From: a virus
DNA: 29,248 nt
Direction: 5' to 3' (one strand)
IMG/VR virus record: IMGVR_UViG_3300033273_000337
Span: 1 to 29,248 of that record
Within the stretch, counting starts at the first letter, position 1. Each line of letters opens with the position of its first letter. The position numbers and the translations under genes are program-made. Positions 8,801 through 25,900 of this stretch are shown here, one piece after another. The notes under the pieces were generated by a model, which had not been told where the DNA came from, did not search any database, and worked only from the letters and a program-made list of their open reading frames with translations.

Positions 8801-9425
8801 GGAAATTAGAGTTGATGATGCAAGTGTATTTGGCACAAATCAAATTCTTAAGATTGACTCCGAATTCTTAGATATTACTGCTGTAAATACAGACACTGTT
8901 GGTACTTCAATCGTTGTCCTTGCTGAAGAAAAAGCAGCAAGAGCATATGATGGTCAGCAAGTCAAGATTAGATTCCTTTATTCACAAGGAAGATTCACTG
9001 GTCATGACTTCCTACAAGTTGGAACTGGTGGAACAGCTACAACAAATTGGCCTGGAACACCTTCTCAGGATCCAGTACAAACACAAGAAGTTGTTGAAGA
9101 TTTCCCAGGACGTGTCTTCTATGTTTCTGCTGACTCTAACGGTAACTTCCGTGTTGGTAGATACTTTAAGGTTAACCAGGCAACTGGTTCTGCAACATTG
9201 AATGCTTCTGCATTCGACCTTTCTGGTCTATCTTCCTTGAGACTGGGTTCAATTGGTGCTCAGTTAGGTGCTCAAATTAATGAGTTCTCTACTGATACCA
9301 CACTCTCTCAAAATAGTAATGAAAAAGTTCCTACTCAAGCAGCAGTCAAGGCATACATTGACAATGCAGAAACTAGGACAAAGGCACGAGCAGTCCGTGA
9401 TGCCTTCTTCTATGGCATGAGCTGA
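5898..9425 (+). CDS. Large tail-fibre protein with CBM5/12-like repeats and beta-helix region
   Basis: 1175 residues. The ATG at 5898 follows AAGGAA at 5881-5885. Residues about 12-258 hold five repeats of about 50 residues of the pattern W-x-G-x-Y/W, D-V-V-x-Y/F-G-G, Y-V-A, HTN, resembling carbohydrate-binding modules of the CBM5/12 type. A linker with GDLLVQGGAGASRLPVG follows, then a region from about residue 315 (FYVTEEGADNNTGE, YVKAGVYDE) that looks like the start of a pectate-lyase-like beta-helix. Residues about 870-1030 carry two copies of a module seen again in gp15 here. The C-terminus has the phage-fibre phrase NEKVPTQAAVKAYID. Likely a receptor-binding fibre. A late-promoter-like GATAAATA at 5766-5773, inside the upstream gene, could serve it. 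Confidence 0.8.
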   Translation: MADFRLGRLKFNWRGGWAASTDYVIDDIVKFGANTYVCTENHTSVVDETTWYATDLSKWSLHTEGLVQRGTWTPGVYYKINDVVDYGNTQYRVTAGFSTNSFSTTYLTEYLRGFQYEDTWDSATEYQPGDFVTYGGYSYVATSIHTNRVPTDYLAADWDVVTTGFDSVGTYSTTVDYKPGDVVQFGGYAYVAETKSTNVHPTTTPDWNLIVKGINWAGSYQTATTYELGDAVQRNSNSYISVASTNTGNDPASDTLGTYWNALTQGAETNVLTTAGDLLVQGGAGASRLPVGAAGSVLAVSDSGYPEWQPNNVSEQVFYVTEEGADNNTGENIQNSFATLGRALSVVNGAATIYVKAGVYDEVLPLTVPPDVTVVGDNIRTTKIRAASGLSNVWTLTLGQELNNVAFGSVIQFSNGARCTYLDGNAQEDVITVIRNTLYAPPLSGNYITYVDNIPYSGPTTYINNYVNEVNAHTKMFLMSDKTMLKDLQMEGLTGYTSAGQAHQASGSISGTTLTSSGLIDDYVGTTVTGANVAANTKIVNVLNATTAEVSISQSVSTTTLTFTAPPQDINNAHIKGVYISLNPATPITKSPYISQCSAFSTGGVGAIVDGRIHRAFPPGSATPSNKSIVFDSFTNIHDNGVSFWVTNNAAAEFVSCFSYYAHISYAATRGGRIRSLAGNSSWGTYGLVSSGYNFDETPITGNVEGLQVKFDPTTISGPGFNEGGRFIGQNSGAEGYINSSQTDKLIYSLVTAGPLGLGTGFSVGETIRADNGTTADLVPNTDCNTGIDGFTFPMSGLPAGMEDGGSVEFVTGSGNGGFNNQVITGADQFTYVVSNISYRAPDGRGSIQVNRGQLGSIAAGHTGGAVNGIVAYPESGVTETLLSTVGAGDTTIFVSSTTGFTQGGFAKVADELMKIVTVISSTSLEVERSADGSGAAGSYNNGAATVAIGASTVLAAELFRDAINSDTEIRVDDASVFGTNQILKIDSEFLDITAVNTDTVGTSIVVLAEEKAARAYDGQQVKIRFLYSQGRFTGHDFLQVGTGGTATTNWPGTPSQDPVQTQEVVEDFPGRVFYVSADSNGNFRVGRYFKVNQATGSATLNASAFDLSGLSSLRLGSIGAQLGAQINEFSTDTTLSQNSNEKVPTQAAVKAYIDNAETRTKARAVRDAFFYGMS

Positions 9426-10112: not shown

Positions 10113-11162
10113 ATGGCGGCAGACGTACTATTATATAATGCGTTAAACGATCTTAACGCAGGTAAAAGAGCACAAGTTGCTGCTCTTGATTCTCAAATTG
10201 CAGCAAAAGCAACTGAATGTGCTGGTTATGAAAGCACAATTGCAACTAATAGTGTAGCAATTGTTAATCATGCAGGTCCAGAACACCCAGAACTTTGGGG
10301 TCTTATTCCAACTCAACCTGAAGCAGGTGGAAACTTCGATAGTGGATTTAAAGTTTGTGATACTTCTGGTTACTACCGTTGTGGTTCAAGTTGCACTTGG
10401 ACTGTTCCAGCTGGTGTAACTTGTGCTCGTTTCCAAATTTGGGGTTCTGGTGCAGGAACTGGTTCATCATGTTGCTGTGGATGGACACATATCGGTCCTT
10501 CTGGTGCATATGCATCTGTAATTATTCCAGTAACAGAAGGTGATACATACACCTTATGTGGTGGTTGTGCATATTGTTGTTATGGAACAAGAGGACAGGT
10601 AACAGTTCAAGGTTGCCCATCTTATGTAACTGGTACTGGTCTCACCAACTTCTGTGCTGAAGGTGGAAAAGCAGGAATGTTCTGCGAGATGAAAGTAAGA
10701 TGCTCAATGGCACTAATTTGCTGTAACTATTGCATCTACTCCGCAGGTTCTGCTTGTATTTGTACAACTGGTACTGACGTTTGTATTGAAGGTAATCAAG
10801 GTGGTTATACCTGCTCAAATAGTGCAGGTGCAGTAAATATCAGAAAGAGTTGTGCCATGTATTATGGTTCAGCAGCAAGTGGAACTGTATATGGTATTCA
10901 GGGTGCATATCACCTAACTTCGGAAGGTAATGGTGCCGTACTTTGCGTCAGACACGCACCAGTTTATGGATTCCCCAATGACTCCTGCTGCCACTGCTGT
11001 ATAGCTACATCAGGTAGAGCAGGTTTAGAGAGATCTGCATGTGCTGGATACATGCAAATTCCATCTGCTGGTGGATGGGCAGCATTCACATGTGCTGGTT
11101 GTGCTACCCACTGTGGTGATGCTGGTAGAATGGGTATGGTTTGTGTATCTTGGAAGTCTTGA
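10113..11162 (+). CDS. Cysteine-rich virion protein A, glycine-rich-domain fold relative
   Basis: 349 residues with 34 cysteines by my count (about 10%). Start ATG 10113 follows GGAGG (10099-10103). Residues 1-60 look helical or coiled-coil (AGKRAQVAALDSQIAAKA). From about residue 90 the phrase CTWTVPAGVTCARFQIWGSG followed by GAYASVIIPV resembles the glycine-rich sandwich domain of phage fibre tips, but many glycine positions hold Cys: CCC at 120-122, CGGCAYCC, CCHCC near 290 and CATHCGD near the end. The C-terminus GRMGMVCVSW is shared with protein B (11859-12908), a same-length paralogue. Likely a surface-exposed adhesin held by disulfides or binding metal; neither can be told from sequence. 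Its function is not established. Confidence 0.75.
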   Translation: MAADVLLYNALNDLNAGKRAQVAALDSQIAAKATECAGYESTIATNSVAIVNHAGPEHPELWGLIPTQPEAGGNFDSGFKVCDTSGYYRCGSSCTWTVPAGVTCARFQIWGSGAGTGSSCCCGWTHIGPSGAYASVIIPVTEGDTYTLCGGCAYCCYGTRGQVTVQGCPSYVTGTGLTNFCAEGGKAGMFCEMKVRCSMALICCNYCIYSAGSACICTTGTDVCIEGNQGGYTCSNSAGAVNIRKSCAMYYGSAASGTVYGIQGAYHLTSEGNGAVLCVRHAPVYGFPNDSCCHCCIATSGRAGLERSACAGYMQIPSAGGWAAFTCAGCATHCGDAGRMGMVCVSWKS

Positions 11163-11858: not shown

Positions 11859-12908
11859 ATGGACGTATTATCGTATTCTGCTTTTAATGAAAGCAAAAAG
11901 TTAGACGACTTAATTGCACAAAGAACTACTGAGTTAGCAACTAAAACGGCAGAAACTGCTGCTAAGGCTAATACTGCTGCACAGTTTAGTGCCGATACAA
12001 TATGTTGGTTGCAGTGTGTGGAACCCTGCCTTCAAGGTTGCCCTTACGCAGAGAGCCTTTGGTGCTTTATTCCTGGATTAGATACTGTTACTAACGCTCA
12101 AAAGATTTGTAATACCTGTCCACAATTTAACTGTGGTAACTGCTGCTTATGGACTGTTCCTGATGGTGCTACCCAGATTAGATTCCAATTATGGGGTGCT
12201 GGTGGTGGTTCAAGTACTGGTTGCTGCTGTGGTGGTTCACCTTTTGGAGCAACGGGTGCATATGCATCAGTAATTATTCCTGCAACTCCAGGTTGTCAGT
12301 ATACTATTTGTACTGGTTGTGCATATTGCTGCTTCCCATCTGTTGGTGGAGTTGGTAGAGTTGCTGGATGCCCAACATGGATTACTGGTTATGGTCTTGA
12401 TAATGTCTGTGCTGCAGGTGGACCTGGAAACATGGGTGAGTGGATGGGTACTTATGGTAAGGCAAATACTTACAGAATGAGTCACTATTCCCACCCAGAT
12501 GCTGGTCCATGCTTCTGTAATGGTGGTGCCGACTATTGCTTTGTTAACTCTTGTGCTACTTGTGGTATTATTCCAATCGTCCCTGCTGGTGAATACTTTG
12601 GAACAGTAACACACCCAGATGCCTTAGGTAGTATCGTATATGGTATTAGAGGTATGTGGCCTTGCATCTGTTTCCAAACAGATCATTATGGTTATCAGCA
12701 GCATCCTCCAGTCTATGGATTTGAAGATGTGTCCAAATGTAATCCTTCTTGGTCTTCTGGATATTGTTGCGGATGTGAATGTAGTGCTGGTAGAGGATAT
12801 CTTGAAGTTCCTGGTGCAGGTGGTTTCTACTCTACAGCAATGGGTGGTGCGACTAGTATGTGCGGAGATATGGGTAGAATGGGTATGGTCTGCATTCAGT
12901 GGAAGTAA
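11859..12908 (+). CDS. Cysteine-rich virion protein B, paralogue of protein A
   Basis: 349 residues with 34 cysteines by my count, the same totals as protein A. The N-terminal 45 residues are a Cys-free helical segment (KKLDDLIAQRTTELATKTAE), followed by CWLQC and CLQGC. The core phrase LWTVPDGATQIRFQLWGAGG leads to CCC at residues 122-124, GAYASVIIPA and CTGCAYCC, all colinear with protein A. The end, MCGDMGRMGMVC, is also shared. The middle differs (HYSHPDAGPCFCNGGADYC). The pair probably arose by duplication and may form a hetero-oligomeric tip, or offer alternative tips. The ATG at 11859 lies just after GGGAG. The two copies are diverged, so the duplication is not recent. Confidence 0.75.
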   Translation: MDVLSYSAFNESKKLDDLIAQRTTELATKTAETAAKANTAAQFSADTICWLQCVEPCLQGCPYAESLWCFIPGLDTVTNAQKICNTCPQFNCGNCCLWTVPDGATQIRFQLWGAGGGSSTGCCCGGSPFGATGAYASVIIPATPGCQYTICTGCAYCCFPSVGGVGRVAGCPTWITGYGLDNVCAAGGPGNMGEWMGTYGKANTYRMSHYSHPDAGPCFCNGGADYCFVNSCATCGIIPIVPAGEYFGTVTHPDALGSIVYGIRGMWPCICFQTDHYGYQQHPPVYGFEDVSKCNPSWSSGYCCGCECSAGRGYLEVPGAGGFYSTAMGGATSMCGDMGRMGMVCIQWK

Positions 12909-12925
12909 TACCCTTCTGATTACAT

Positions 12926-12933
12926 TATAAATA
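12926..12933 (+). promoter_or_regulatory. Exact T4 late promoter TATAAATA before the carbohydrate island
   Basis: Full 8 of 8 match to the T4 late -10 element, in the gap after protein B and 26 bases before the ATG at 12960. It is the only promoter candidate I can see ahead of seven closely packed plus-strand sugar genes, which implies late expression together with virion genes. Confidence 0.75.
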
Positions 12934-12959: not shown

Positions 12960-14063
12960 ATGAATAAAGCATTCTTTATTAACGGTGGAGCAGGGAGAGT
13001 TCTCTGCTCCATTCCTGCGTTAGAGCATCATGCAAAAACCAATAAAGACTTCGTAATTGTTGCAGAGTCTTGGGGAGATTTATATTTAACAAGCCCTATC
13101 CTTCGGGAGAGGGCATTTCCTATGCATCATAAAAATCTTTTTGAGGATTATCTCAAAGATAAGGAAATTATTAGTCCAGAACCTTATAGATTAAATGCTT
13201 ATTTCAATCAAAAAGCAAATTTGATTCAAGCATTTGATATGATAATTAATGGTCTTGATGAAGTTCCAGAAACTAAAGAATTAAAGTTAGAACTTCCTAA
13301 AGACACTCAGATACTTGGATATAATTTAGTTGGTGAAGTAAAAGAAAAACTTAAAAAAGATAAGGTTGTTGTTTTCCAACCATTTGGAAGTACAGTAAAA
13401 ACTGAAGGTAAGTTTATTACTGATTCTTCTGGAAGAAGTTTTGAGATGAAGAATGTATATTCTATCATTGAAGAACTCAAAAAAGATTATGGTGTTATCC
13501 TAATGTCAAGTGTGGAGATTCCTGGTTGGGAAGACCTTGGTGTAGCAAAACCATCAGGAACAGGTCTTCTTGAATGGTGTGGTATAATTAATGCTGCAGA
13601 TTATTTCTTGGGATGTGATAGTGTAGGGCAGCACATGGCACATGGACTAAATAAACCAGCAACTGTAGTCATTGGTTCAACGTATCCAGAGAACATTTCA
13701 TATCCTGGAAATAAAAACTTTAAGATTATAGATTTGGGTAACGAGAAAAGAAAGTATACTCCAATCAGAATGACTTTTGACCAATGTATTGACTTAAATA
13801 ATGAATCCCTAATGGTTATTGAAACTGATAATCAGATTAAAGATTTAAAGAAGTCAATAGTTAATAAAATTGGTACTTCAAAGAAAGTATCAAAATCTAC
13901 ATTTAATGCTGGAAGTAGCAATGTTAAGGGAGCAAAAATGCCTCCTCAGGCATCCTTTCCTTCAGGAGGAGGAGCAGTAGATACTCTTTTAAGTGGTTCT
14001 AAAAAGAGTACCAAAAAGACTACTATAGATAAAGTTTTAGAACTTGATAACGCAAAAAATTGA
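12960..14063 (+). CDS. GT9-family glycosyltransferase (heptosyltransferase-like)
   Basis: 367 residues. The N-terminus has the glycine motif GGAGRVLCSIPALEHH (9 onward), matching the IGD-x-V-x-x-x-P-A-L start of ADP-heptose:LPS heptosyltransferases. Residues 217-240 (LGCDSVGQHMAHGLNKPAT, then VVIGSTYPEN) match the family's D-S-x-x-x-H-x-A, K-P-x-V-x-x-F-G nucleotide-sugar site. Residues from about 290 on form a Ser/Lys/Gly-rich tail that the family does not need. Such enzymes move heptose from ADP-heptose to an acceptor; HldE- and HldD-type genes in the same island supply the matching donor. The acceptor is unknown. No Shine-Dalgarno is clear, and the next gene starts nine bases after the stop. 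Sugar specificity is inferred from context. Confidence 0.75.
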   Translation: MNKAFFINGGAGRVLCSIPALEHHAKTNKDFVIVAESWGDLYLTSPILRERAFPMHHKNLFEDYLKDKEIISPEPYRLNAYFNQKANLIQAFDMIINGLDEVPETKELKLELPKDTQILGYNLVGEVKEKLKKDKVVVFQPFGSTVKTEGKFITDSSGRSFEMKNVYSIIEELKKDYGVILMSSVEIPGWEDLGVAKPSGTGLLEWCGIINAADYFLGCDSVGQHMAHGLNKPATVVIGSTYPENISYPGNKNFKIIDLGNEKRKYTPIRMTFDQCIDLNNESLMVIETDNQIKDLKKSIVNKIGTSKKVSKSTFNAGSSNVKGAKMPPQASFPSGGGAVDTLLSGSKKSTKKTTIDKVLELDNAKN

Positions 14064-14072
14064 GGTTTTACT

Positions 14073-15902
14073 ATGGAAAGAGACGAAGTAATTGTTGCTA
14101 TTACTAGAGGACATAATGCAAGTACCACCTTAATGATTAATGGTGAAATTAAGTGGTATCTTGAAGAAGAAAGAATTACAAGAAGGAAGTATGATGGATG
14201 CCCTCTTGCAGGTCTAATTCAAGTTTCTAAGGAAGTTGACCATATTGATGAACTAATCATCTGCCATACACATAGAGGTGGTCCACAAACTGACTGGACA
14301 GCAACAGACATTTATGAGGCATTGGTTCAGAAACTATTTAAGTTTGATACCAATAATCTACCTGCTGTTCATTTTGTAGATACTATTCACCATGAACTTC
14401 ATGCTGCAGTTGGATTTATAAATTCTGGATTTGATGAAGCAGTATGTGTTATTGCTGATGGTGCTGGTAGTTTTCTTGAAAGTACCGAATGGGAAGGAAT
14501 AGCATTTGAATTTGAAACCATTTTTAAGGCAAAATGGCCAAAGAATAGTGGTGAATCAATGCTTAAATTTGAAACACTTTGGAAGCATTTAGGACAAAAG
14601 GATTCAAGAAAATCTAATTTAATTTTTGATGGTACAACTCTAATCGATAGTTATTTGGGAATCACAAAAGCATATGAAGCAGTTACTGAGTATTGTGGAT
14701 TCCAATCTATTGATGCTGGAAAAACAATGGGTCTTTCTCCTTACGGAAAAGAAAATCCAGAACTTCCTAGTTTGTTAGATGAAAATGGTAATATCTCAAG
14801 AGCACTATTCATTCCAAACTATCCTAATGGATCTTGGATTGATGTTGGTGTAAGTGAAGCACTTCAAAAAGATTGCTCAGAAGAAAATACAGCAATTAAA
14901 CAAAGTGGTGGTTATACTCAAACTCAAAAAGATATGGCATATGCTGTTCAGAAAATGACTGAACAAAAGATGTGTGATCTAATCAGAAAAGCAGTAGAAC
15001 TTTCTGGTTGTAATAATGTTATAGTTTGTGGTGGTTATGGTCTTAACTGCGTTGCAAATTATAAGTATTGGCAAAATTTTCCAGATATTAATATTCATTG
15101 TGAACCAATTGCACATGATGGTGGTATTTCTATTGGTGCAGCAAAACTTCTTTATTCCAGAAAGCACGAAATTCAAGAACCTTGGCCAGTACAAACTTCT
15201 ATTTACTATGGACCTCAGTATGATTATTCTGAATATGAAAAGGCAATTGCTGACTTAGAGACTACAGATGTTTCTTATGATGATATTGCTAAACTAATTC
15301 GTGAAGGAAACATTGTTACTATTTTCCAAGGTCGTTCTGAAGGTGGTCCCAGAGCACTAGGTAATAGGTCTATTCTGTTTGACCCAACCATTAAAGATGG
15401 TAAAGATATTGTCAACAGTGTTAAAAAACGAGAGTTCTTCAGACCATTTGCATGTAGCATAAAAGAAGAAAGTGTACATGAATACTTTGATTTGGCAGGT
15501 CGTGAAAAAAGTCCTCATATGATGTATGCTGTTAAGTGTAAAGATGGTGTGGAAGAAAAGATTCCGTCTGTAATTCACGTTGATGGTACTTGTAGAATTC
15601 AGACTGTTACTGAAGAAGAAAATGAGCACTATTATAAATTAATTGATGCTTTTGAAAAATTGAGTGACGTTCCAATTTTATTCAATACTTCTTTTAATCT
15701 TGGTGGACAACCTTTGGTTGAAACTATTGATGATGCAATCAAGACATTGAAGAATAGTGATATTGATTATATGTATCTTCCAGAGATTGGTAAATTAGTT
15801 ACAGTTACTAGTAAAACTGAAGATATGAATGGATTGGGATTCCCATACAATAGTTTCACAAAGTTTGAAGTTTCAGAAAAACCTGAAGGTGCAACAGTTT
15901 AA
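14073..15902 (+). CDS. NodU/CmcH-family O-carbamoyltransferase, copy 1
   Basis: 609 residues, normal for the family. The N-terminal Kae1-like domain has RGHNASTTLMINGEI and LEEERITRRKYDG, then the metal-site run HHELHA (His106, 107, 110) and DGAGS. The GGYGLNCVANYK and HDGGISIGAA motifs follow. The C-terminal YrdC-like domain has EGGPRALGNRSILFDP (GPRALGNRS at about 425-433), VHEYFDL and NTSFNLGG. All expected motifs are present. Such enzymes use carbamoyl phosphate and ATP through a carbamoyl-AMP intermediate to carbamoylate a sugar or natural-product hydroxyl. A Shine-Dalgarno GAGG (14062-14065) precedes the ATG. The substrate is not shown; an activated or transferred heptose is plausible given the neighbours. 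Confidence 0.9.
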   Translation: MERDEVIVAITRGHNASTTLMINGEIKWYLEEERITRRKYDGCPLAGLIQVSKEVDHIDELIICHTHRGGPQTDWTATDIYEALVQKLFKFDTNNLPAVHFVDTIHHELHAAVGFINSGFDEAVCVIADGAGSFLESTEWEGIAFEFETIFKAKWPKNSGESMLKFETLWKHLGQKDSRKSNLIFDGTTLIDSYLGITKAYEAVTEYCGFQSIDAGKTMGLSPYGKENPELPSLLDENGNISRALFIPNYPNGSWIDVGVSEALQKDCSEENTAIKQSGGYTQTQKDMAYAVQKMTEQKMCDLIRKAVELSGCNNVIVCGGYGLNCVANYKYWQNFPDINIHCEPIAHDGGISIGAAKLLYSRKHEIQEPWPVQTSIYYGPQYDYSEYEKAIADLETTDVSYDDIAKLIREGNIVTIFQGRSEGGPRALGNRSILFDPTIKDGKDIVNSVKKREFFRPFACSIKEESVHEYFDLAGREKSPHMMYAVKCKDGVEEKIPSVIHVDGTCRIQTVTEEENEHYYKLIDAFEKLSDVPILFNTSFNLGGQPLVETIDDAIKTLKNSDIDYMYLPEIGKLVTVTSKTEDMNGLGFPYNSFTKFEVSEKPEGATV

Positions 15903-15925
15903 TTATATAAAATTTGAATTGAAAA

Positions 15926-17614
15926 ATGACTACTCACGTATGTCTTCATGTAGACCATGATTCTGCAGCTGCTATTGTAAAGGATGGAAAATTTCATTCT
16001 CTTATTTCAGAAGAAAGATTAGTTCATATTAAGCATTCTGGTGTTCCTATTCTGATTATTGATGAACTAAAAAGACTTGGGTTATCTATTGATAACCTTT
16101 CTTTTTCAATTTTAAATAATCATGATGACCAAGTACTTGATTACGTTTATCAGCATGGTTATAGAAAAAAACTATGGGGTGAATGTGGGATAACCCAACA
16201 TACATCCCATCATATTCTTCATGCAATTACTGCATTTATTCGTTCAGGAATGGATGAAGCAGTGGCAATCATCATTGATGGTGCAGGAAGTATGTATGAT
16301 TATGGTAAGGAACATCTTAGTGTAATTAAGTGCGGATATCTTAAAGATGGTAGACCTTCCTTTGATTTCATTCACCAGAAAATAGTTGGTAGTGGTGAAC
16401 TTATTGAAGAGGGCAAATGTCCACCATGGGTGGATAGATATAAATGTATTGGACCAGGATATGCATATTCAGCAGCCACAAGTGCCTTAGGGTGGGGTGG
16501 ACTGGATTGCGGTAAACTTATGGGGATTGCTCCATATGGAGAGGATGATAAAAATGTACCAGAGTTATTAAATATAAATTCAAGTGCAAATTTAGATGCC
16601 TTTTCTTTAATGACGTTTAATGTCACATCTTTTGGTCCTAGAGGAGCAGTTTTAGATAAGAATGATTATATAAATTCGATATGGAAAGAAAATAAGGGAA
16701 CTATAGAAGAAGCAGGTAAGTATAGAACAATTGCTCAAAATGTTGCCTATAGAATGCAAGATGATTTTGAAAAATATATAATTAATTTTTTCAATAAAGT
16801 TCTTGATAATGTTCCAACAAAAAATATTGTCTATAGTGGTGGATGTGCATTAAATTGCGTTGCAAACTATAAGTTACTTAAGTCTTTGCCTGAAGATGTA
16901 AATCTCTATATTGAACCAATATCTGCAGATGATGGAGTTGCACTTGGGGGAGTAATTTCTTCTATAATTAATGCTAATGAAACCATTCCATCTTTTGATG
17001 GAATATACTTTGGTTCTCAATTGGAGTATACTTATACATTGCTTTCGGGTGAATCGGAAAAGAATACAACTGCAAAAGAAGTTGCTACTCTTATATCTGA
17101 AGGCAATATTGTAGCAATAGCACAAGGAAAAAGTGAATCTGGTCCCAGAGCTCTTGGTAATAGGTCCATTTTATTTGACCCAAGAGTTATTGACGGTAAA
17201 ACTATAGTCAATAGAGTAAAGAAACGAGAAACTTGGAGACCTTTTGCTGGAACTGTACTAGTAGAATATGCAAAAGACTGGTTTGATATGGATAGACTTG
17301 AAGAAACTCCATACATGATGTATGCTGTTGATGTTATTCCAGAAAAGCAAGATAAAATTCCATCGATTGTCCATGTTGATGGAACATGCCGTATTCAGAC
17401 AGTTTCTGAAGAGCAGAATAAAAACTATTATGAATTAATAAAGGAGTTTTATTCAATTACAAATGTTCCTATTGTATTCAATACCTCATTTAATCTTGCT
17501 GGAGATACAATAGTAGAGACAATTGATGATGCTTTCAATACACTTAGAAATAGTGAGATTGAATATCTTTATCTTCCAGAGATTAAAAAACTTATCTACG
17601 TACCTAATAAATGA
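15926..17614 (+). CDS. NodU/CmcH-family O-carbamoyltransferase, copy 2
   Basis: 562 residues, a paralogue of the preceding gene. The motifs run in the same order: HDSAAAIVKDGKF, SEERLVHIKH, HHILHA (His95, 96, 99), DGAGS, SGGCALNCVANYK, DDGVALGGV, SGPRALGNRSILFDP (GPRALGNRS from about 406), DGTCRIQTV, NTSFNLAGD. Both copies look intact. Differences are concentrated in the central region, which suggests different acceptors or a heteromeric enzyme. The gap from copy 1 is 23 bases, and the stop overlaps the next gene's start as ATGA. No clear Shine-Dalgarno precedes it. Confidence 0.9.
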   Translation: MTTHVCLHVDHDSAAAIVKDGKFHSLISEERLVHIKHSGVPILIIDELKRLGLSIDNLSFSILNNHDDQVLDYVYQHGYRKKLWGECGITQHTSHHILHAITAFIRSGMDEAVAIIIDGAGSMYDYGKEHLSVIKCGYLKDGRPSFDFIHQKIVGSGELIEEGKCPPWVDRYKCIGPGYAYSAATSALGWGGLDCGKLMGIAPYGEDDKNVPELLNINSSANLDAFSLMTFNVTSFGPRGAVLDKNDYINSIWKENKGTIEEAGKYRTIAQNVAYRMQDDFEKYIINFFNKVLDNVPTKNIVYSGGCALNCVANYKLLKSLPEDVNLYIEPISADDGVALGGVISSIINANETIPSFDGIYFGSQLEYTYTLLSGESEKNTTAKEVATLISEGNIVAIAQGKSESGPRALGNRSILFDPRVIDGKTIVNRVKKRETWRPFAGTVLVEYAKDWFDMDRLEETPYMMYAVDVIPEKQDKIPSIVHVDGTCRIQTVSEEQNKNYYELIKEFYSITNVPIVFNTSFNLAGDTIVETIDDAFNTLRNSEIEYLYLPEIKKLIYVPNK

Positions 17615-18009
17615 AAATTTCTTTTGTCAATGGATGTTTTGATGTTCTTCATCCAGGACATATTGAGCTTTTAAAATATGCTAGTTCTCTTGGTGATTAT
17701 CTAATTGTTGCCATAGATTCAGATAGAAAAGTGGCAGAGATGAAAGGTCCAGAAAGACCTATATTCTCTCAGTCTGATAGGTCTTACATGTTAAAAGAAA
17801 TACGATGTGTGGATGTAGTTCATATATTTGATTCTAAAGAAGAATTAGAGTCATTGCTGGATTCATTGAGACCTGATACAATGGTAGTAGGTTCAGACTG
17901 GAAAGGAAAAGAAGTAGTAGGTTCACAGTATGCCAAATCAGTCAAATTCTTCGACAGAATCGGAGACTACTCGACAACTAAAACAATTCAAGGTTCTTCT
18001 TATCGGTGA
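17611..18009 (+). CDS. HldE C-terminal-type heptose 1-phosphate adenylyltransferase
   Basis: 132 residues, the size of a free-standing HldE adenylyltransferase domain. The N-terminus FVNGCFDVLHPGH carries the nucleotidyltransferase HxGH motif (His14-His17); LGDYLIVAIDSD, RPIFSQSDRSYML and the final STTKTI (121-126) align with the HldE C-terminal domain (E. coli: FDILHAGH, STTNII). It would attach AMP to D-glycero-beta-D-manno-heptose 1-phosphate. In most bacteria this domain is the second half of a bifunctional protein; here it is a separate gene placed before the kinase gene. Related cytidylyltransferases (TagD, ECT types) share HxGH, but the kinase and epimerase neighbours favour the heptose role. 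Confidence 0.8.
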   Translation: MKISFVNGCFDVLHPGHIELLKYASSLGDYLIVAIDSDRKVAEMKGPERPIFSQSDRSYMLKEIRCVDVVHIFDSKEELESLLDSLRPDTMVVGSDWKGKEVVGSQYAKSVKFFDRIGDYSTTKTIQGSSYR

Positions 18010-18727
18010 TAGTTGTGAAGATGAGTACATTTATGGTACTTGTAAACGCATAAGTCCAGAAGCACCAGTTCCTGTTATGGACTATTCTAGATTAGAAACA
18101 AAATCTGGAATGGCAGGAAACGTATGCTTAAACTTACAGTCGTTTGAAATGGATATAACGTTCTTAACTAACTCTGAGAAATTAGTTAAGACACGATTTA
18201 TCGATGAAAAATCAAATCAGCAAATTCTTAGAGTTGATAATGAAGAAGATGTAAAACCTCTATTGTTGCCAATTAGCACTGATGGTTTTGATGCAGTTGT
18301 AATTTCTGATTATAATAAAGGTTATCTAACTTATTCTAAAATTGAAGAAATAGTTTCTGGTTCTACATGTCCAGTGTTTATTGATAGTAAAAAACGATTT
18401 TTACCAAATAAAGAAAATTGTTTTGTAAAAATAAATGACCTTGAGTATAGTCAATTAGATGAAAAGTGTCATATTGATAATCTAATTGTCACCAAAGGTT
18501 CTGAAGGATGTTATTATAAAAATACTTTGTATCCAGCAGAAAAAGTAAATGTTTACGATGTTGTTGGTGCAGGTGATACTTTTCTAGCAGCACTAGTTTT
18601 TAGTTATCTTGCTAGAGATGATATGAGTGAAGCAATTCGTTTTGCAAATAAAGCAGCAGCAGTTGTTGTTGGTCAACCAGGTACATACGTTTTACAGGAG
18701 AAAGATATAAATGAGATATGTAGTTGA
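17930..18727 (+). CDS. HldE N-terminal-type (PfkB family) heptose 7-phosphate kinase
   Basis: 265 residues, shorter than the roughly 318-residue kinase half of E. coli HldE. The signature RISPEAPVPV (40-49) is highly characteristic of HldE/RfaE kinases, and the PfkB active-site motif VVGAGDTFLAAL has GAGDT at 213-217. SDYNKGYL matches the SDYAKG phrase. A central segment between about 78 and 88 appears shortened against E. coli. It would phosphorylate D-glycero-D-manno-heptose 7-phosphate at C1. The ATG at 17930 is the only one possible in frame before the fold begins, so it overlaps the adenylyltransferase gene by 80 bases; residues 1-20 are polar and probably disordered. Confidence 0.8.
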   Translation: MPNQSNSSTESETTRQLKQFKVLLIGDSCEDEYIYGTCKRISPEAPVPVMDYSRLETKSGMAGNVCLNLQSFEMDITFLTNSEKLVKTRFIDEKSNQQILRVDNEEDVKPLLLPISTDGFDAVVISDYNKGYLTYSKIEEIVSGSTCPVFIDSKKRFLPNKENCFVKINDLEYSQLDEKCHIDNLIVTKGSEGCYYKNTLYPAEKVNVYDVVGAGDTFLAALVFSYLARDDMSEAIRFANKAAAVVVGQPGTYVLQEKDINEICS

Positions 18728-19040
18728 TATTGATGCAACCATTTGTACCCCAGGTACATGTGAAGCATGTAGATATGAAGGTTCTACACCAATCCAGGAT
18801 AGGATTGATAAAATAAATAAATTGTACGATGATGGGCATATCATCAAATACTTTACTGCCCGAGGCATGGGAAGGTATAATGATGATGCGGAAAAGGCAC
18901 GGGAAAAATTTTACGGACTAACTAAAATGCAGTTAGACGTTTGGGGTTGTAAGTATCATGAACTTATTCTCGGAAAACCATCAGCCGACTATTACATAGA
19001 TGACAAAGCTGTAAATTCAGATGACTTCTTCAAGACCTAG
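18711..19040 (+). CDS. Small HAD-family phosphatase, possible GmhB substitute
   Basis: 109 residues. HAD motif I is VVDIDATIC (Asp6, Asp8), motif II is the Thr of FTARG (Thr49), Lys89 lies in GKP, and motif III is YIDDKAV (Asp97, Asp98), so all catalytic positions are present. The pattern (INKLYDDGHIIKYFTARG, QLDVWGCKYHELILGKPSADYYIDDKA) is that of small HAD proteins found in capsule and sugar loci. It overlaps the kinase gene by 17 bases and has a Shine-Dalgarno GGAG at 18697-18700. The heptose pathway needs removal of the C7 phosphate from heptose 1,7-bisphosphate, the GmhB step, and this is the only phosphatase in the island. It is much smaller than E. coli GmhB (about 190 residues), so the role is inferred. 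Confidence 0.7.
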   Translation: MRYVVDIDATICTPGTCEACRYEGSTPIQDRIDKINKLYDDGHIIKYFTARGMGRYNDDAEKAREKFYGLTKMQLDVWGCKYHELILGKPSADYYIDDKAVNSDDFFKT

Positions 19041-19401
19041 AGCAGGAAAGGACATCAAATTCGTACCTAAGGGATGGGGATTTGAAAAATGGATTGTAAA
19101 TTGTGAACAATACTGCGGAAAACTTCTGTATATTGTTAAAGGAAAGAAGTGCTCATGGCACTACCACAACAAAAAAGATGAAGTTTTTTATGTTCAAAGT
19201 GGTAAGATTAAAATCAAGTATGGTTGGTCAGATAATCAAGAGTTGGGTTCTATAGCAATATTAGAACGTGGAGAAAAGTTCCACGTTCCTGTTGGTATGA
19301 GACATCAAATGTATGGTTTAGAAGATACAGAACTGTTTGAGTTTAGTACAGAACATTTTGATGACGATAGTATTCGTGTCATCCAAGGAGATACTCTTTG
19401 A
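19021..19401 (+). CDS. Cupin-fold protein of the phosphomannose isomerase C-terminal type
   Basis: 126 residues. The single cupin domain has the metal-binding set His47, His49, Glu54 (SWHYHNKKDEVFYV) and His95 (PVGMRHQM). The opening KFVPKGWGFEKWIV and the phrase LERGEKFHVPVG are typical of mannose-6-phosphate isomerase type II C-terminal and related sugar cupins. It may isomerise or bind a sugar phosphate; the reaction is unknown. It begins 20 bases inside the HAD gene, and its last 23 bases overlap the end of hldD on the opposite strand. It closes the seven-gene plus-strand run. Confidence 0.75.
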   Translation: MTSSRPRAGKDIKFVPKGWGFEKWIVNCEQYCGKLLYIVKGKKCSWHYHNKKDEVFYVQSGKIKIKYGWSDNQELGSIAILERGEKFHVPVGMRHQMYGLEDTELFEFSTEHFDDDSIRVIQGDTL

Positions 19402-20170
19402 CAGTTTTAAATTTACGATTACCCCACTCTTTCTTAGCACAAGTATAAATTTGATATTTGCCTTTTAAATGGTCGGGGAATGGAATGTATTCTATATCTC
19501 CACCATATTTTTTTATGCAGCATTCTGCTACATGTTGAAAACTTACTGGAGCACTTGTTCCTAAGTCGTAGATACCTGACCCTTTATTATTATTCAGAAC
19601 AACATCTACTATATCATCAACACACACAAAGTCTCTTAAGAAGTCTTGAGAACCTTCAAATAGTTTTAGTTTACCTGTTTCTTTGATTTCCTTGGCAAAC
19701 TTACTTACAGGACTTGCTTGATTTCCTTTGTGTTCTTCACCATCACCATAAACATTAAAGTATCTAAACCCCTGAATAAGAGAAAACTTGTCAATATTAT
19801 CTTGAACCCAATAGTCAGTGGTTACTTTTGATAGTGCATAGTAATTAAGTGGATTGATTATCCCTTGCTCATTTCCATATACGGAAGCAGATGAAGCATA
19901 CTTTACGGGAATATTAAACAATATTGCTTTTTTAAACAACCACTGACTGTATTCAATATTAAAATTAAAAATTTCTTTTAAATTTGTGTTTGTAGTTGAT
20001 GACATTGCTCCTTGATGGATAATGCACTCAACATTACTCCAATCATTGAAGCACTCTCTCCATTCCCAACAATCATTCTTGTCTATTTCAATAACTTTTT
20101 TTCCTTTTTCGATTAGAGATTTTAAAAATTTTTTACCGAGAAATCCCTTTGAACCAGTTAATATAATCAT
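19379..20170 (-). CDS. hldD: ADP-L-glycero-D-manno-heptose 6-epimerase
   Basis: 263 residues against about 310 in E. coli. The extended SDR fold is intact: NAD site TGSKGFLG (6-12), SSASVYG, and the catalytic pair Tyr111 and Lys115 in YYALSK. HldD-specific phrases are present: HQGAMSSTT, FRYFNVYGDGEEHKG, KLFEGSQDFLRDFV, and IEYIPFPDHLKGKYQ near the C-terminus. I chose the ATG at 20170 because the fold starts there; a longer frame begins upstream but adds no family sequence. It converts ADP-D-glycero- to ADP-L-glycero-D-manno-heptose. It is the only minus-strand gene in the window and overlaps the cupin gene tail to tail by 23 bases. A sigma70-like promoter lies at 20231-20259. Confidence 0.9.
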   Translation of the reverse strand: MIILTGSKGFLGKKFLKSLIEKGKKVIEIDKNDCWEWRECFNDWSNVECIIHQGAMSSTTNTNLKEIFNFNIEYSQWLFKKAILFNIPVKYASSASVYGNEQGIINPLNYYALSKVTTDYWVQDNIDKFSLIQGFRYFNVYGDGEEHKGNQASPVSKFAKEIKETGKLKLFEGSQDFLRDFVCVDDIVDVVLNNNKGSGIYDLGTSAPVSFQHVAECCIKKYGGDIEYIPFPDHLKGKYQIYTCAKKEWGNRKFKTVKEYLLG

Positions 20171-20206: not shown

Positions 20207-22030
20207 ATGGCCTTTGGCTTTCTTAATTCTATTATACCAAATGCGGATCAAAATGTAACCTTATACACTTCTCCAGGCAACACCCTGACGCAGGGAAAGG
20301 TTTCAGTTTCTAGCAAGGTAACTAATCCAGTAAGGATTCGATTATCCATACGAGAATCTGGTGCTTCGGTTACAGATTTGAAGTATTTAGAGTATAATAG
20401 ATACATTAATTATGGGGAAGTATTTGAAACTGGTGAAATTAATATTGGACCATTGCAAGAGTTGGTTGTAAGGTGTGACCACCCCGACGTTAGTTTCTTG
20501 CTGACTGGAGAAACTTTTGATGAGTCCAATGCAGATTTAGGAACTCATGGTTCTCCATCTGTTAATACCCATTCTGGTCTACTTGGTTGTCTAATATCTA
20601 CAGATAGTAATAAGAAAGAACTTTATAAGGTTCCATTTTCTGGTGATAGACCAGACTTGAGAACAAATGCAACAGTGGTTATTTGTAATGTAGGACCTAC
20701 AGTAGCAAGAGCAAGAATTGGATTAATTCAAACTGGAGATATACTTTCTGGTTTTAGTGTAGAAGATTACATTGAATATGAAGTTGCTGTTTTACCTGGA
20801 CAAACTTACACTAGACCTGGCGTAAAATTGGTTGCAGGTGAAAGTATAGTAGTTTCTTCGTCTGATAGATCAAATCTACAATTCCTCCTTCATGGAAGAT
20901 TGAAAAGAGAAACTGGAGATATTTCTACCAAAGATTTAACAGCAAGTGGTGACATCACAGGAAATACTTTATCTGTATATAATGCTTCTGTAAGTGGAAT
21001 TCTTACTGCCCCTAGTATTGATGGTGAAATGCCATATGGTACTGTAGTTGGTGGTGGGGTAACTATTAATGGAACTGGTATTGATGTAGGTGTAGGTGTT
21101 GTAACTGCAACTCACTACTATGGTAATGGAACTGAACTGGCAGGTATCGTTACAACACTTACTGCAGGGGCAAATGTAAGTTTATCAGCAACTACTGGTA
21201 GTGTAGTCATTACTTCCATACCTTCTAGTCTTAATGTTATTGGAGTTAGCACACTTGGTATAACTACATTCACTGGTACTATATCCATTGGTTCTAGTGT
21301 TTTAATTGGTGATGATAAAAAGATAATTGTTGGTGATGATTCTGACTTATCAGTATTTTATGATAGTAGTAATAATGTCACAGCATTTGAATCTGATTCA
21401 TTAATTTTTAGAACAAAATCTACACCTAATGAAAATTATATTACGGGTCTTGCAAATGGACCTGTAGAATTTTACTATGATGGTAGTAAGAAATTTGGAA
21501 CATCTGACAGTGGTGTAGCTGTTCTTGGTGACCTTGAGGTATCTGGTATTGTTACAGCATCATCCTATAACTCTTCTTTAGGAATGGACCTTGTTACACA
21601 AGGTCAGACTAGAGTTGCTATTACATCAACAGGAACATCAATCTTTAAATCAGGACTTGCTGAGAAGTATAATATTGTAGCAACAACTGCTGGAACATCT
21701 CCATCTCAGTCTATTAACTCTGGTAATGTAATTAAATTTACTGGAAATGAAACTGGAAACAACATCACATTGAATATTTCTGATGTCCATGCTCACATTG
21801 CTTCTGGTGAGTCCGTATCAATCACTGCAATTATTACACCAAATAATATTGGAAACTTTAATGCTATTCAAATTGATGGGCAATCTCCTTCAGGTGGACT
21901 GAAGTGGACTAATGGAAATGCTCCTGTTGCTTCTGCTTCTGGAGAAGATGTATATACATTTACTATACTCAAGTTTGGTTCCAATACTAATGAATACGTT
22001 GTTTATGGTGCCAAGACAAATTACGCATGA
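20207..22030 (+). CDS. Tail-fibre-like structural protein with duplicated N-terminal domain
   Basis: 607 residues. The ATG at 20207 is preferred to a TTG four codons earlier. Two N-terminal domains (about 1-105 and 120-245) match the free-standing 105-residue protein at 9502-9819, with YLEYNRYINYGEVF and YIEYEVAVLPGQTY as landmarks. The middle (about 250-440) is a repetitive beta region with phrases such as DLTASGDITGNTLSV, SVSGILTAPSI and DDSDLSVFYDSSNN, as in other marine phage fibres. The C-terminus is a distinct beta domain (about 505-607, ending YVVYGAKTNYA). No enzyme motif. It lies between the sugar island and the neck genes, with its own exact late promoter. Confidence 0.75.
   Translation: MAFGFLNSIIPNADQNVTLYTSPGNTLTQGKVSVSSKVTNPVRIRLSIRESGASVTDLKYLEYNRYINYGEVFETGEINIGPLQELVVRCDHPDVSFLLTGETFDESNADLGTHGSPSVNTHSGLLGCLISTDSNKKELYKVPFSGDRPDLRTNATVVICNVGPTVARARIGLIQTGDILSGFSVEDYIEYEVAVLPGQTYTRPGVKLVAGESIVVSSSDRSNLQFLLHGRLKRETGDISTKDLTASGDITGNTLSVYNASVSGILTAPSIDGEMPYGTVVGGGVTINGTGIDVGVGVVTATHYYGNGTELAGIVTTLTAGANVSLSATTGSVVITSIPSSLNVIGVSTLGITTFTGTISIGSSVLIGDDKKIIVGDDSDLSVFYDSSNNVTAFESDSLIFRTKSTPNENYITGLANGPVEFYYDGSKKFGTSDSGVAVLGDLEVSGIVTASSYNSSLGMDLVTQGQTRVAITSTGTSIFKSGLAEKYNIVATTAGTSPSQSINSGNVIKFTGNETGNNITLNISDVHAHIASGESVSITAIITPNNIGNFNAIQIDGQSPSGGLKWTNGNAPVASASGEDVYTFTILKFGSNTNEYVVYGAKTNYA
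20231..20259 (-). promoter_or_regulatory. Sigma70-like promoter for hldD (minus strand)
   Basis: Read on the minus strand: GTTACA (4 of 6 to TTGACA), a 17-base spacer, then an exact TATAAT (plus-strand ATTATA at 20231-20236). The leader to the hldD ATG would be about 55 bases. The site lies inside the start of the 607-residue gene. In AT-rich DNA this could be chance. Confidence 0.45.
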
Positions 22031-22075
22031 TAGGAGATAGATAATTCTCAATTTTTGGTGTCTATGGAGGTTATT

Positions 22076-22114
22076 ATGCTTGGCCATCCTAGTGATAAAT
22101 ATAAGTACGGGTAA
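22076..22114 (+). CDS. Possible 12-residue leader peptide before gp13
   Basis: ATG at 22076 opens a 12-codon frame, MLGHPSDKYKYG, ending in TAA at 22112-22114. A strong Shine-Dalgarno GGAGG (22066-22070) sits five bases before it, better than that of gp13 itself. An in-frame ATG at 22064 would make 16 codons. The frame contains the late promoter GATAAATA, so only longer transcripts would carry it. It may be a true micro-gene, a leader peptide, or chance. Confidence 0.3.
   Translation: MLGHPSDKYKYG
22094..22101 (+). promoter_or_regulatory. T4-type late promoter, GATAAATA, before gp13
   Basis: 7 of 8 match, 24 bases upstream of the gp13 ATG at 22126. Confidence 0.6.
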
Positions 22115-22125
22115 GTAGGTAGTAA

Positions 22126-22956
22126 ATGGCATCACCCAATTCTAGAGCAAGTTTAATCGAGTATTGTCTCAGAAAACTAGGTAAACCAGTTCTTGAGATT
22201 AATGTCGATGATGACCAAATCGGGGATTTGGTTGATGATGCATTGCAGTATTTTAATGAAAGACACTATGATGGTGCTGTTCGTACTTACTTAAAGCATC
22301 AATTAACGGAAGATAATAAAGCAGCAATTCTTTCTAGCTCAGTTGAGCAGAAAACAAATACTGCTAATGTTGGTATTGCAACCACTTCTGCAACTACAGA
22401 TTTTGAAGAAGGAAATAATTTTTTAGAATTACCAGATAGTATTATTGGAGTCAACAACGTTTTTAAAGTTGACTCTAGTACAATATCATCTGGTCTTTTT
22501 AATATCAAATATCAGATATTTTTGAACGACTTATATTACTATGGTGCTCTAGACCTAATGAACTATGCGATGGTCAAGACTCACCTAGAAGATATTAGTA
22601 GATTACTAACACCTGATGTTCAGTTAAGGTTCAATAAGAAACAACATAGACTATATCTTGACATTGACTGGAAGCAAGTAGACGCAGACCAGTACATTGT
22701 TTTAGATTGTATTAGGATAGTCAATCCTAATGACTTTACAGCAGTATATAATGACTGGTGGGTCAAGAGATATACTACTGCATTAATTAAACGACAGTGG
22801 GGACAGAACTTAATTAAGTTCCAGGGAGTTCAACTTCCTGGTGGCATCAGTCTTAATGGTAGAGAAATCTATGAAGATGCTATTCAAGAAATTGATAAGT
22901 TAGAGGAAGAACTCCATAATGATTATGAACTACCTCCAATGGACATGATTGGTTGA
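22126..22956 (+). CDS. 13: gp13 neck protein
   Basis: 276 residues against 309 in T4. The opening (SRASLIEYCLRKLGKPVLEINVDDDQI cut here to its start: SRASLIEYCLRKLGKPV) and DDALQYFNERHYDG are typical of gp13 of T4-like marine phages, as are FLNDLYYYGALDLMNYAMV and YNDWWVKRYTTALIKRQWG. gp13 forms the head-completion ring that joins gp14 at the portal so that the tail can dock. The gene is followed at once by gp14 (stop TGA at 22954-22956, ATG at 22958), the T4 order. Soluble, no membrane segment. A short insert near residues 75-105 is Ser/Thr-rich. Confidence 0.9.
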   Translation: MASPNSRASLIEYCLRKLGKPVLEINVDDDQIGDLVDDALQYFNERHYDGAVRTYLKHQLTEDNKAAILSSSVEQKTNTANVGIATTSATTDFEEGNNFLELPDSIIGVNNVFKVDSSTISSGLFNIKYQIFLNDLYYYGALDLMNYAMVKTHLEDISRLLTPDVQLRFNKKQHRLYLDIDWKQVDADQYIVLDCIRIVNPNDFTAVYNDWWVKRYTTALIKRQWGQNLIKFQGVQLPGGISLNGREIYEDAIQEIDKLEEELHNDYELPPMDMIG

Positions 22957-22957
22957 T

Positions 22958-25900
22958 ATGACACCTTTAAATTCTTACTTTCTACAGGGGTCTCCAAGTG
23001 AGCAGAGACTTGTACAAGACTTAATTAATGAACAACTAAGCATTTATGGGCAAGATGTTGTATACATGCCCAGAAAGATTATCAATGAAGAGAAAGTACT
23101 TAAGGAAATTACTGTCTCTAAATTTGATGATAGTTTTCGTATTGAGGCATATATCTCAACGTTTGATGGATATGGTGGACAAGGTGATATTCTTAGTAAG
23201 TTTGGAGTAAGAAGCACAGATGAGATTACTTTTGTAATCTCAAAAGAACGTTATGCAGACTTCATTACCCCAAAGATTAGTTTATTTAAGGACCAAGTAA
23301 AAACTGCAGAAAGGCCACAAGAAGGTGATTTAATATATCTTCCATTAGACAATAGTCTTTTTGAGATTAAGTATGTTGAAATGAAGGCACCCTTCTATCA
23401 ACTTAATAATCTTTATGTTTATGAACTCCGTTGTGAGCTCTTTGAATATGAGGATGAAGTTATTGATACTGATATTCCAGAGGTTGATGAGTCTGTTCAA
23501 GACTTTGGTTATATACAGACCTTGGTTATGCATAACAGCACTACCTTTGTTCAAGCTAGAGCAAATTCAATTGACTTACATGCTTCATTAGTAGGTACTC
23601 GTCCAGGTTTACCCGAGTATGGTGTTGTTTATATTGATATCATTAATGGTGGTTCTGGATATCTCACTCCACCAGAAGTCAGGTTTAAGAAACCTGGTGG
23701 TTTTGGAATATTACCAAAAGTAGAGGCAGTCCTCGATAGAGGGTCTATATCTAAGGTATTAATTAGTCATCCTGGCATGGGTTATACCTTTGCTCCAGAA
23801 ATTACATTCCACGGTGGTGGAGGAGTAGGTGCTGCTGCTACAGCAGTTATTGCTAAGGGAATTCCTTTAGTTGGACTTACAACAGGTGGTGTTGGATACT
23901 CTACTGCACCTAATGTATACATTAATAATCCAGTAAATCCAAACAGTCCTAATGGTTTCGACCCAATCTTCAATCCTAAGTATATCACTAGACTAAATTC
24001 TGTAGGTAATGTTGTCTCAATACTTGCAGAACGTGTTGGTGGTAAGTATGACGAGTTTGCATCTGGTGCGGGATTACCACCATCAGTTGCTATAGATCCA
24101 CAATCCCCAACTTTCATTAATCGTGAGGGAGCAACAGCAACTGCGACAGTTGGTGCTGGTGGGACTGTCACGGCAATTAGCATAACAAACGGTGGTGCAG
24201 GATATAACTCTGCACCAGTGGTAAGTATTTCCACGGCACCAGATACGACTACAACCAGTATAGGAACAATATTACTTGAGGATGTTGGATTAGGTTATAC
24301 TGTCGGCACATATCCATTAAGACCTTTCCCAGGACAGAACCCAACTCCTGTGGGAGCAAATGGTATTGTTAGTATAGATTCAGTTGGTGTTGGTGGAAGT
24401 ATCACAGGAATATCAGTTTCTGCTGGAGGAACTAATTTTGCTGTAGGGGAAAGATATACATTTGGTGGTACTGTGGGTGCATCAACAATTACCAGTGTTT
24501 TACTTGGACCAGCAGCACTTACCGCATCAACTGAACCAGACGACCAAAATAATGATGATGATTGGTGGGAACTCGATCTCCCATGGAATGTCCAGTATGC
24601 TGGCGGTGAATATGCGAAAGTTTTTGTTGCTACAAATAACTACCTGACCTTTGTTGAAGGAAGTGACGATTATACACCAGAAGCAACGTATCCTGCGGTT
24701 CCTAAGATTTTAATTCGGGCTGATGATAACTCAGTACAAAGAATATACTATGGTACAGAAGGAACTGCACCAAATAGAACATTCAGAATCCGTTCAGAGG
24801 GAACTGATGATACTGAGGGTACATTAGGTTCTCCAAACATGGTATATGAAGCTATTTTCTATGAAGCAACTCCAAATCAGATTGATATTCAAAATGGAGA
24901 ATTGGCAAGAAACGATCAATCGGAATATCCTGGAGTAAGTGGTGCGTTTTCATCTGATACTCTCCTTGCTACTGGAAATCTTGCAAACTCATTTAGTGGA
25001 ACTCGGTTAACGAGTAGTACTCTGCCTGGTAATGGAGCACGTATAAATGTTACTGGTCTAGCAACAGATATAGGAGTAACTGCAACAGCAACCGCAGTAG
25101 TTGGATCTGGTGGTACTATTGGTGCGATTACAATAACAAACCCAGGAGCTGGATATACTGTTACACCAACAGTGGATATTGCTCTTCCAATCATACCTAA
25201 TAGTGCTAATTTCAGAGAAGCAACAGCAACTTCAACAATAGGTACTTCTGGCACCGTCACATCATTAACTATAACAGATAATGGTTTGGGATACGGTTCA
25301 GCACCAGTTGTAAGTATTTCCACAGCACCTTATAGAGATGATTCCATTCAGTACTTTAGATTGAATAGTTCTGGTATCCGAACAGGTGATGTATATACAC
25401 AAGGACCAGGTGGAAACAGCAGTGGTGTTGGTGGATTCTCAGGAAATCATGGTGTCAATTATGACGTTGGTGATATACTCAGAATGGATGCTCGTTCCCA
25501 CATGACTGGTTCGGGAGCAATAATCCGTGTTGATTCTGTTCAATCTGAAGGTAGAGTTACTGGATTTACCATGCTCTATGGTGGTTCTAACTATCAACCA
25601 ATGCAGAATCTCTCAATGGATTACTATGATGCAACATATGTTACTGCAGCAGGACTTGGAACTGGCACACAGCTTAGATTGGCAGTAGATACAGTTGAAA
25701 CAGTTCAGGGAGTAAATGCAACAGCAACAGCAGTTTTAGGTGTTGGTGGTAGTGTCACTGGTTTAACAATAACAAATCCTGGTCTTGGGTATAGCAATGC
25801 ACCAACAGTTACTATGACTCCAGCAGCAGCTCCTGGTTCCAATACAATTGGAATAACAACAGGGCACTTCAAATTCAATGAGACTGTCACTGGTCAAACT

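Follow-up and report, generated by a model that had tools for sequence, protein, structure and literature searches.

A cupin as candidate first enzyme of a heptose gene module among the tail genes of a T4-like phage

In Escherichia coli, the ADP-heptose pathway is formed by GmhA, HldE, GmhB and HldD. The kinases and nucleotidyltransferases of the ADP-heptose route are unrelated to those of the GDP-heptose route, and the two have only the GmhA and GmhB steps in common; GmhA isomerises a ketose to a manno-aldose, which is also the chemistry of the cupin sugar isomerases. Among cyanophages, seven lipopolysaccharide (LPS) genes, including T4-GCs 304, 305, 307 and 308, co-occur in three phages, for which a functional link was proposed in 2010 (PMC3037559). 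Here, a related gene block is analysed at positions 12960-20170 of IMG/VR virus record IMGVR_UViG_3300033273_000337 (the window, a stretch of 29,248 nucleotides taken as a whole), which comes from a putative marine cyanophage. The original prediction for this DNA described a heptose-type gene cluster, and its gene calls hold at the same coordinates in an open reading frame check of the window, with family matches confirming that the cluster is real. The Hld-like, GT9-like and HAD proteins are present as it listed them, while two carbamoyltransferases and a cupin had been overlooked. This cupin is probably the isomerase that fills the GmhA step, mislabelled in databases as 'cysteine dioxygenase'. 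The gene set itself is already catalogued but unexplained; what is new is a testable candidate for the missing first enzyme.

The cupin gene lies at 19021-19401 on the plus strand, and its product is a candidate sedoheptulose-7-phosphate isomerase, a functional GmhA, by its invariant residues, its profile match, its predicted structure and its context. GmhA had been described as the only component not seen. The SIS-fold GmhA (TIGR00441) is indeed undetectable in five complete cyanophage relatives and in 15 large viral contigs, in searches that detected E. coli and other controls; the cupin, missed before, makes a strong candidate for its place. It is found in 91 of the 92 deduplicated viral contig groups holding hldA, hldC and hldD, and the sole exception stops at a contig edge. 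Residues H47, H49, K52, E54, H95 and E107 are invariant. The cupin profile matches the D-lyxose ketol-isomerase 2y0o (1e-6) along with other cupin sugar isomerases, and a fold search with the AlphaFold2 (AF2) model (predicted local distance difference test score, pLDDT, 94) places D-lyxose isomerases in complex with mannose or fructose, as well as archaeal cupin phosphomannose isomerases, within the top 50. Invariant K52 and E54 align with the active-site residues K86 and E88 of the D-lyxose isomerase TsLI (PMC8378251), and the cupin was also aligned with 2y0o. Both the metal ligands and the active-site Lys/Glu pair of an aldose-ketose isomerase are therefore in place.

The phage cupin thus resembles the cupin sugar isomerases (D-lyxose/D-mannose isomerase and archaeal phosphomannose isomerase) in its HxH...E...H metal ligands, in the aligned Lys and Glu and in its overall fold, but differs from them in sequence, with approximately 20% identity, and in its predicted substrate, a seven-carbon sugar phosphate. 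It is not homologous to GmhA, and the proposal is that it works like GmhA, not that it is GmhA. No report of a cupin sedoheptulose-7-phosphate isomerase was found in the literature.

The genomic context is independent support for the cupin as isomerase. In SynMITS9220M01, for which heptose genes have been reported (PMC7378029), and in Bellamy, the cupin is positioned with the GHMP kinase HddA (279-287 bits) on one side and an HddC-like nucleotidyltransferase on the other, the SynMITS9220M01 cupin being 60% identical to that of the window. The cupin thus adjoins two unrelated types of heptose kinase, HldA and HddA. Archaeal operons follow the order cupin-hldD-hldA-gmhB-hldC, with no gmhA in the operon and with enzymes at equivalog level (HldA 394 bits, HldD 278 bits), and two archaeal genomes encode the cupin and HldA as one fused protein (kinase part 342 bits). 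Within a sample of 117 genomes of one archaeal order, 38 of them with HldC, the cupin occurs in 10 of the 38 compared with 3 of the 79 lacking HldC (p=0.0007), and all ten cupins share a contig with HldC. Strong gmhA matches (E<=1e-50) are present in 0/10 cupin genomes and 17/28 of the other HldC genomes (p=0.0008), or in 1/10 and 20/28 when weaker matches are included (p=0.0019), although these p-values are optimistic because the archaeal genomes are related and incomplete. A Patescibacteria sample for the same gmhA/cupin test was dropped, since only 4 of 48 genomes with an HldC match have a strong one; the remaining matches are near threshold and probably represent other cytidylyltransferases. 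SynMITS9220M01 (L300) carries two heptose cassettes, at 20923-22373 and 14310-16313, one consisting of HddA, the cupin and the HddC-like protein, the other of a diverged HddA and a diverged GmhA.

Besides the relatedness of the sampled archaea, several observations weigh against the cupin as a dedicated replacement for GmhA. A GmhA-like match (E<=1e-20) is present in 6 of 18 cellular genomes with the cupin locus (seven with one weaker match), and the diverged GmhA stands in the second cassette of SynMITS9220M01; the exclusion between cupin and gmhA is not absolute. In Binataceae, relatives of the cupin are located beside sugar genes (GDP-mannose dehydratase-like, identified by eye), a setting that would fit a mannose-phosphate isomerase; as these cupins lie without hld genes, the cupin family is broader than heptose. 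Furthermore, HldC was detected without GmhA or this cupin in eight archaeal genomes (G038, G051, G071, G075, G076, G079, G090 and G146), which either have a further, third type of isomerase or are incomplete. They indicate that other solutions exist. The cupin could instead catalyse a downstream step, such as the epimerisation of a sugar, with heptose 7-phosphate supplied by the host or by an unrecognised enzyme. The reactions catalysed by cupins are diverse, and the structural matches of the phage model also include CapF, KdgF and oxalate decarboxylase. A downstream role is nevertheless unlikely for a protein that is common to ADP- and GDP-heptose cassettes, takes the place of gmhA in archaeal operons and is found joined to HldA in one protein.

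Three Hld-like enzymes are encoded in the same interval. HldC, a heptose-1-phosphate adenylyltransferase-like protein (17611-18009, plus strand, phrog_7878), has TIGR02199 as its best family (1.6e-34, 118.8 bits; curated NCBIfam equivalog cut-off 181.5), compared with 68.7 bits for glycerol-3-phosphate cytidylyltransferase. HldA, a PfkB-type heptose-7-phosphate kinase-like protein (17930-18727, plus strand), matches TIGR02198 (1.1e-46, 159.5 bits; cut-off 345), with the GAGDT motif visible in its sequence. HldD, an ADP-heptose 6-epimerase-like protein (19379-20170, minus strand), matches TIGR02197 best by far (8e-63, 212.5 bits; cut-off 274.6). In the NCBIfam scan with hidden Markov models (HMMs), all three scores are far above those of any other family, which bears out the predicted ADP-heptose-type route over other PfkB, cytidylyltransferase or epimerase families. 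The E. coli HldD residues S116, Y140, K144 and K178, of which we take Y140 and K178 to be the two catalytic bases, are conserved in 37/37 phage representatives. Compared with the E. coli pathway, the kinase and the adenylyltransferase are encoded separately and their order is reversed, and the cassette contains the cupin and a small HAD protein, with neither GmhA nor a canonical GmhB found. In distant relatives (L052 at 8125-9267 and contigs G003, G004, G006, G007, G009 and G011), the HldC domain is situated in an open frame of 380-413 residues and may be fused to a further domain.

Against an ADP-heptose product stands the fact that no phage HldA, HldC or HldD HMM score reaches its equivalog cut-off, and the phage HldA, shorter than cellular HldA, is 50 residues shorter than the family model. 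The enzymes could thus make another nucleotide sugar. This is improbable, as HldD retains all four checked residues, including the lysine of the HKG motif, and the three best families correspond to consecutive ADP-heptose steps, the enzymes being conserved together in over 90 contig groups.

The small HAD phosphatase (18711-19040, plus strand) belongs to the EcbF/BcbF type (TIGR01689, 3.9e-9; PDB 9iqw, 2e-18), with D6, D8, T10, T49, K89 and D98 invariant. The database label 'phosphoheptose isomerase' (phrog_1238) is attached to this protein, probably by mistake, because it has the HAD residues and the EcbF/BcbF match. None of the five complete cyanophages has a canonical GmhB (TIGR00213), which does occur in two distant contigs. 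The earlier suggestion that the HAD protein could fill the GmhB step is plausible but less well supported than the assignment of the cupin. The small HAD is present in 77/92 contig groups, GmhB in nine, both in five and neither in eleven. It is the 15 groups without the small HAD that count against this step of the route, a recognisable GmhB being present in only four of them. A clean mutual replacement of the two phosphatases is weakened by the five groups with both and the ten or more with neither at the locus.

Transfer of the heptose would fall to the GT9-like, heptosyltransferase-fold protein encoded at 12960-14063 (plus strand, phrog_8954). Its sequence match is weak (RfaQ, 18.5 bits), and a PDB sequence search with its alignment gave only chance matches, so that a fold search was required. 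In this search, the AF2 model (pLDDT 88.7) is closest to WaaC, WaaF, the GT9 structure 3tov and TibC (E 1e-10 to 1e-7, template modelling score about 0.5), which supports a predicted GT9 fold. The GT-B fold and a C-terminal D/H motif are common to the model, WaaC/WaaF and the protein heptosyltransferase TibC; D220/H225 align with WaaC D261/H266 in an hhalign alignment that covered only 53 C-terminal columns. The phage protein differs from these enzymes in its low identity (12-14%), in a carbamoyltransferase that is always alongside and in its N-terminal region. Here, the position of WaaC Asp13 is occupied by Arg13, invariant in 48-49 phage sequences, which speaks against a functional transferase. 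This placement follows the gapless register of WaaC GDVLHTLPAL with phage GRVLCSIPAL, set by inspection, and rests on the motif, since automatic local alignment, applied to the N-terminal 60 residues, settled on a different register. Because of this arginine, the protein is taken as a putative heptosyltransferase. The predicted GT9 transferase in the virion gene cluster is therefore upheld in its fold and lacks the residue equivalent to Asp13, contrary to the view that all catalytic motifs are intact. Residues ~310-367 form a disordered tail, a feature of the near relatives and not of WaaC, WaaF or TibC, with a conserved KKKPIDE-type end that is absent in distant relatives and is possibly a docking peptide.

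Two NodU/CmcH-type O-carbamoyltransferases, at 14073-15902 (phrog_1601; Carbam_trans_C 6e-60, Carbam_trans_N 2e-16) and 15926-17614 (Carbam_trans_C 2e-58, Carbam_trans_N 4e-23), both on the plus strand, fill about half of the interval (14073-17614) and belong to the module. Each holds both Pfam domains (PF16861 and PF02543) above cut-off, as do WapO and NodU; WapO carbamoylates LPS heptose in Pseudomonas (PMC8005017). The proteins of the window differ from these in being phage-encoded and linked to the GT9-like gene. A carbamoyltransferase relative is present in 82/82 contig groups with the GT9-like gene, the second carbamoyltransferase in only part of the relatives. HldD and HldC occur together in 13 of the 15 large contigs examined with the GT9-like gene, the other two being fragments of 60 and 40 kb.

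The block is collinear with annotated genes of P-SSM2, S-CAM3 and S-SSM7. The T4-GC 302-308 block of these phages has the same order (GT9-like, carbamoyltransferase, HldC, HldA, HAD, cupin and opposite-strand hldD) and likewise adjoins tail-fibre genes; the proteins are ~45-75% identical to their counterparts, and the window, unlike them, includes a further full-length carbamoyltransferase within the run itself. The set was thus not new to T4-like marine phages, having been annotated in these genomes and discussed in PMC3037559, although its role was, as originally stated, undescribed. By tblastn, the block is also found in S-CAM1, P-SSM5, Sf-FS3 and single-cell marine viruses. Larger cyanophage genomes carry large LPS gene clusters, and whether such genes are functional or 'stuffer DNA' was left open in 2010 (PMC3037559). 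For this module, passive cargo without selected function is most improbable: catalytic residues of the HAD, cupin and HldD proteins are invariant across divergent phages, and the gene order is conserved. Two contigs from metagenome-assembled genomes, labelled Rhodobacteraceae (L206) and Bifidobacterium breve (L217), contain phage-like or unexpected heptose clusters, L206 being collinear with the window and probably phage DNA. A 'transketolase' beside the hld genes of L217, considered as a supply of sedoheptulose phosphate, resembles pyruvate dehydrogenase E1 and was not used as support.

The module is embedded among virion genes, as originally described: tail-fibre PHROGs flank it upstream (5898-9425, phrog_9851) and downstream (20207-22030, phrog_11338), and homologues of gp13, gp14, gp15 and gp16 come after the downstream tail-fibre gene. 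An ATAAATA motif resembling T4-like late promoters is located at 12927-12933 on the plus strand, 26 nucleotides before the GT9-like gene, the first of the operon. The window has ten copies, all on the plus strand, a count not above chance (mean 8.4). In relatives, the strand ratio is 221:35, and the motif is found 31-50 nucleotides upstream in 16/53 GT9 representatives and in at most one sequence for any other module gene. Its strand and position are what point to a late promoter, and they are suggestive. The plus-strand module genes overlap or abut one another, and as they follow this motif among tail-fibre genes, the heptose product is probably made late in infection. The minus-strand hldD overlaps the 3' end of the cupin gene and, judging from a sequence motif at 20231-20259 on the minus strand (GTTACA-17-TATAAT with a preceding TG, an extended -10), may have its own sigma70-like promoter. 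A similar sequence, TGGTATAAT, is present ~60 nucleotides upstream in relatives L072, L008 and L104 only.

The sugar would most probably be attached either to a tail-fibre protein of the virion or to a glycan on the host surface. Probable late expression within the tail gene run, together with the heptose-free LPS of marine Synechococcus WH8102 and CC9311 (PMC4515613), favours decoration of the virion. It is quite possible that the heptose instead alters the host cell surface, for example by blocking superinfection or changing receptors. A second arrangement, with hldA, hldD, hldC, HAD and cupin inside polysaccharide clusters, is present in S-SM2 and P-TIM68 and favours such a role; in these phages and in many contigs, the core lies with glycosyltransferases away from tail genes, and NodU/WapO-type carbamoyltransferases modify cell-surface sugars. 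Conversely, the module is positioned inside a tail-fibre/neck run behind the late-promoter-like motif in the window and in dozens of contigs, and the heptose-free LPS of the two strains leaves no known host acceptor.

From the computed gene identities, folds, conservation and co-occurrence, we infer a sequence of reactions with their timing and target, all functions being predictions. In place of GmhA, the cupin would convert sedoheptulose 7-phosphate into D-glycero-D-manno-heptose 7-phosphate by isomerisation, HldA would phosphorylate C1, the small HAD would remove the 7-phosphate in place of GmhB, HldC would adenylylate the product and HldD would epimerise C6. The GT9-like protein would then transfer the heptose, and the carbamoyltransferase or carbamoyltransferases would carbamoylate either the heptose itself or the same glycan. 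We consider it reasonably likely that the module comprises such a cupin-initiated route with GT9 transfer and carbamoylation, made late and directed at tail fibres or the host surface. The narrower proposal remains tentative, namely a complete cyanophage route with an unrecognised cupin isomerase family, used late to attach heptose, possibly carbamoylated, to the tail fibres of the phage itself, a sugar that is missing from the LPS of the two Synechococcus strains. If the cupin is the isomerase, many genomes of archaea, candidate phyla and cyanophages now scored as lacking the first heptose step would have a complete pathway. Two labels in phage records would be corrected, 'phosphoheptose isomerase' on a HAD phosphatase and 'cysteine dioxygenase' on an isomerase, and the 2010 question of whether the 'LPS genes' of cyanophages have a function, and which structures they decorate, becomes directly testable.

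The neighbouring genes show further features. The upstream tail fibre has two CBM_5_12 carbohydrate-binding matches. Directly upstream of the GT9-like gene, 10113-11162 and 11859-12908 encode paralogous proteins of 349 residues (phrog_35878), each containing 34 Cys (9.7% Cys, 14.3% Gly), a very high cysteine content for phage proteins. The gp14 homologue (22949-26143) has 1064 residues, of which only approximately residues 5-330 match head-closure families; the remainder resembles repeats, with matches to structural and baseplate families.

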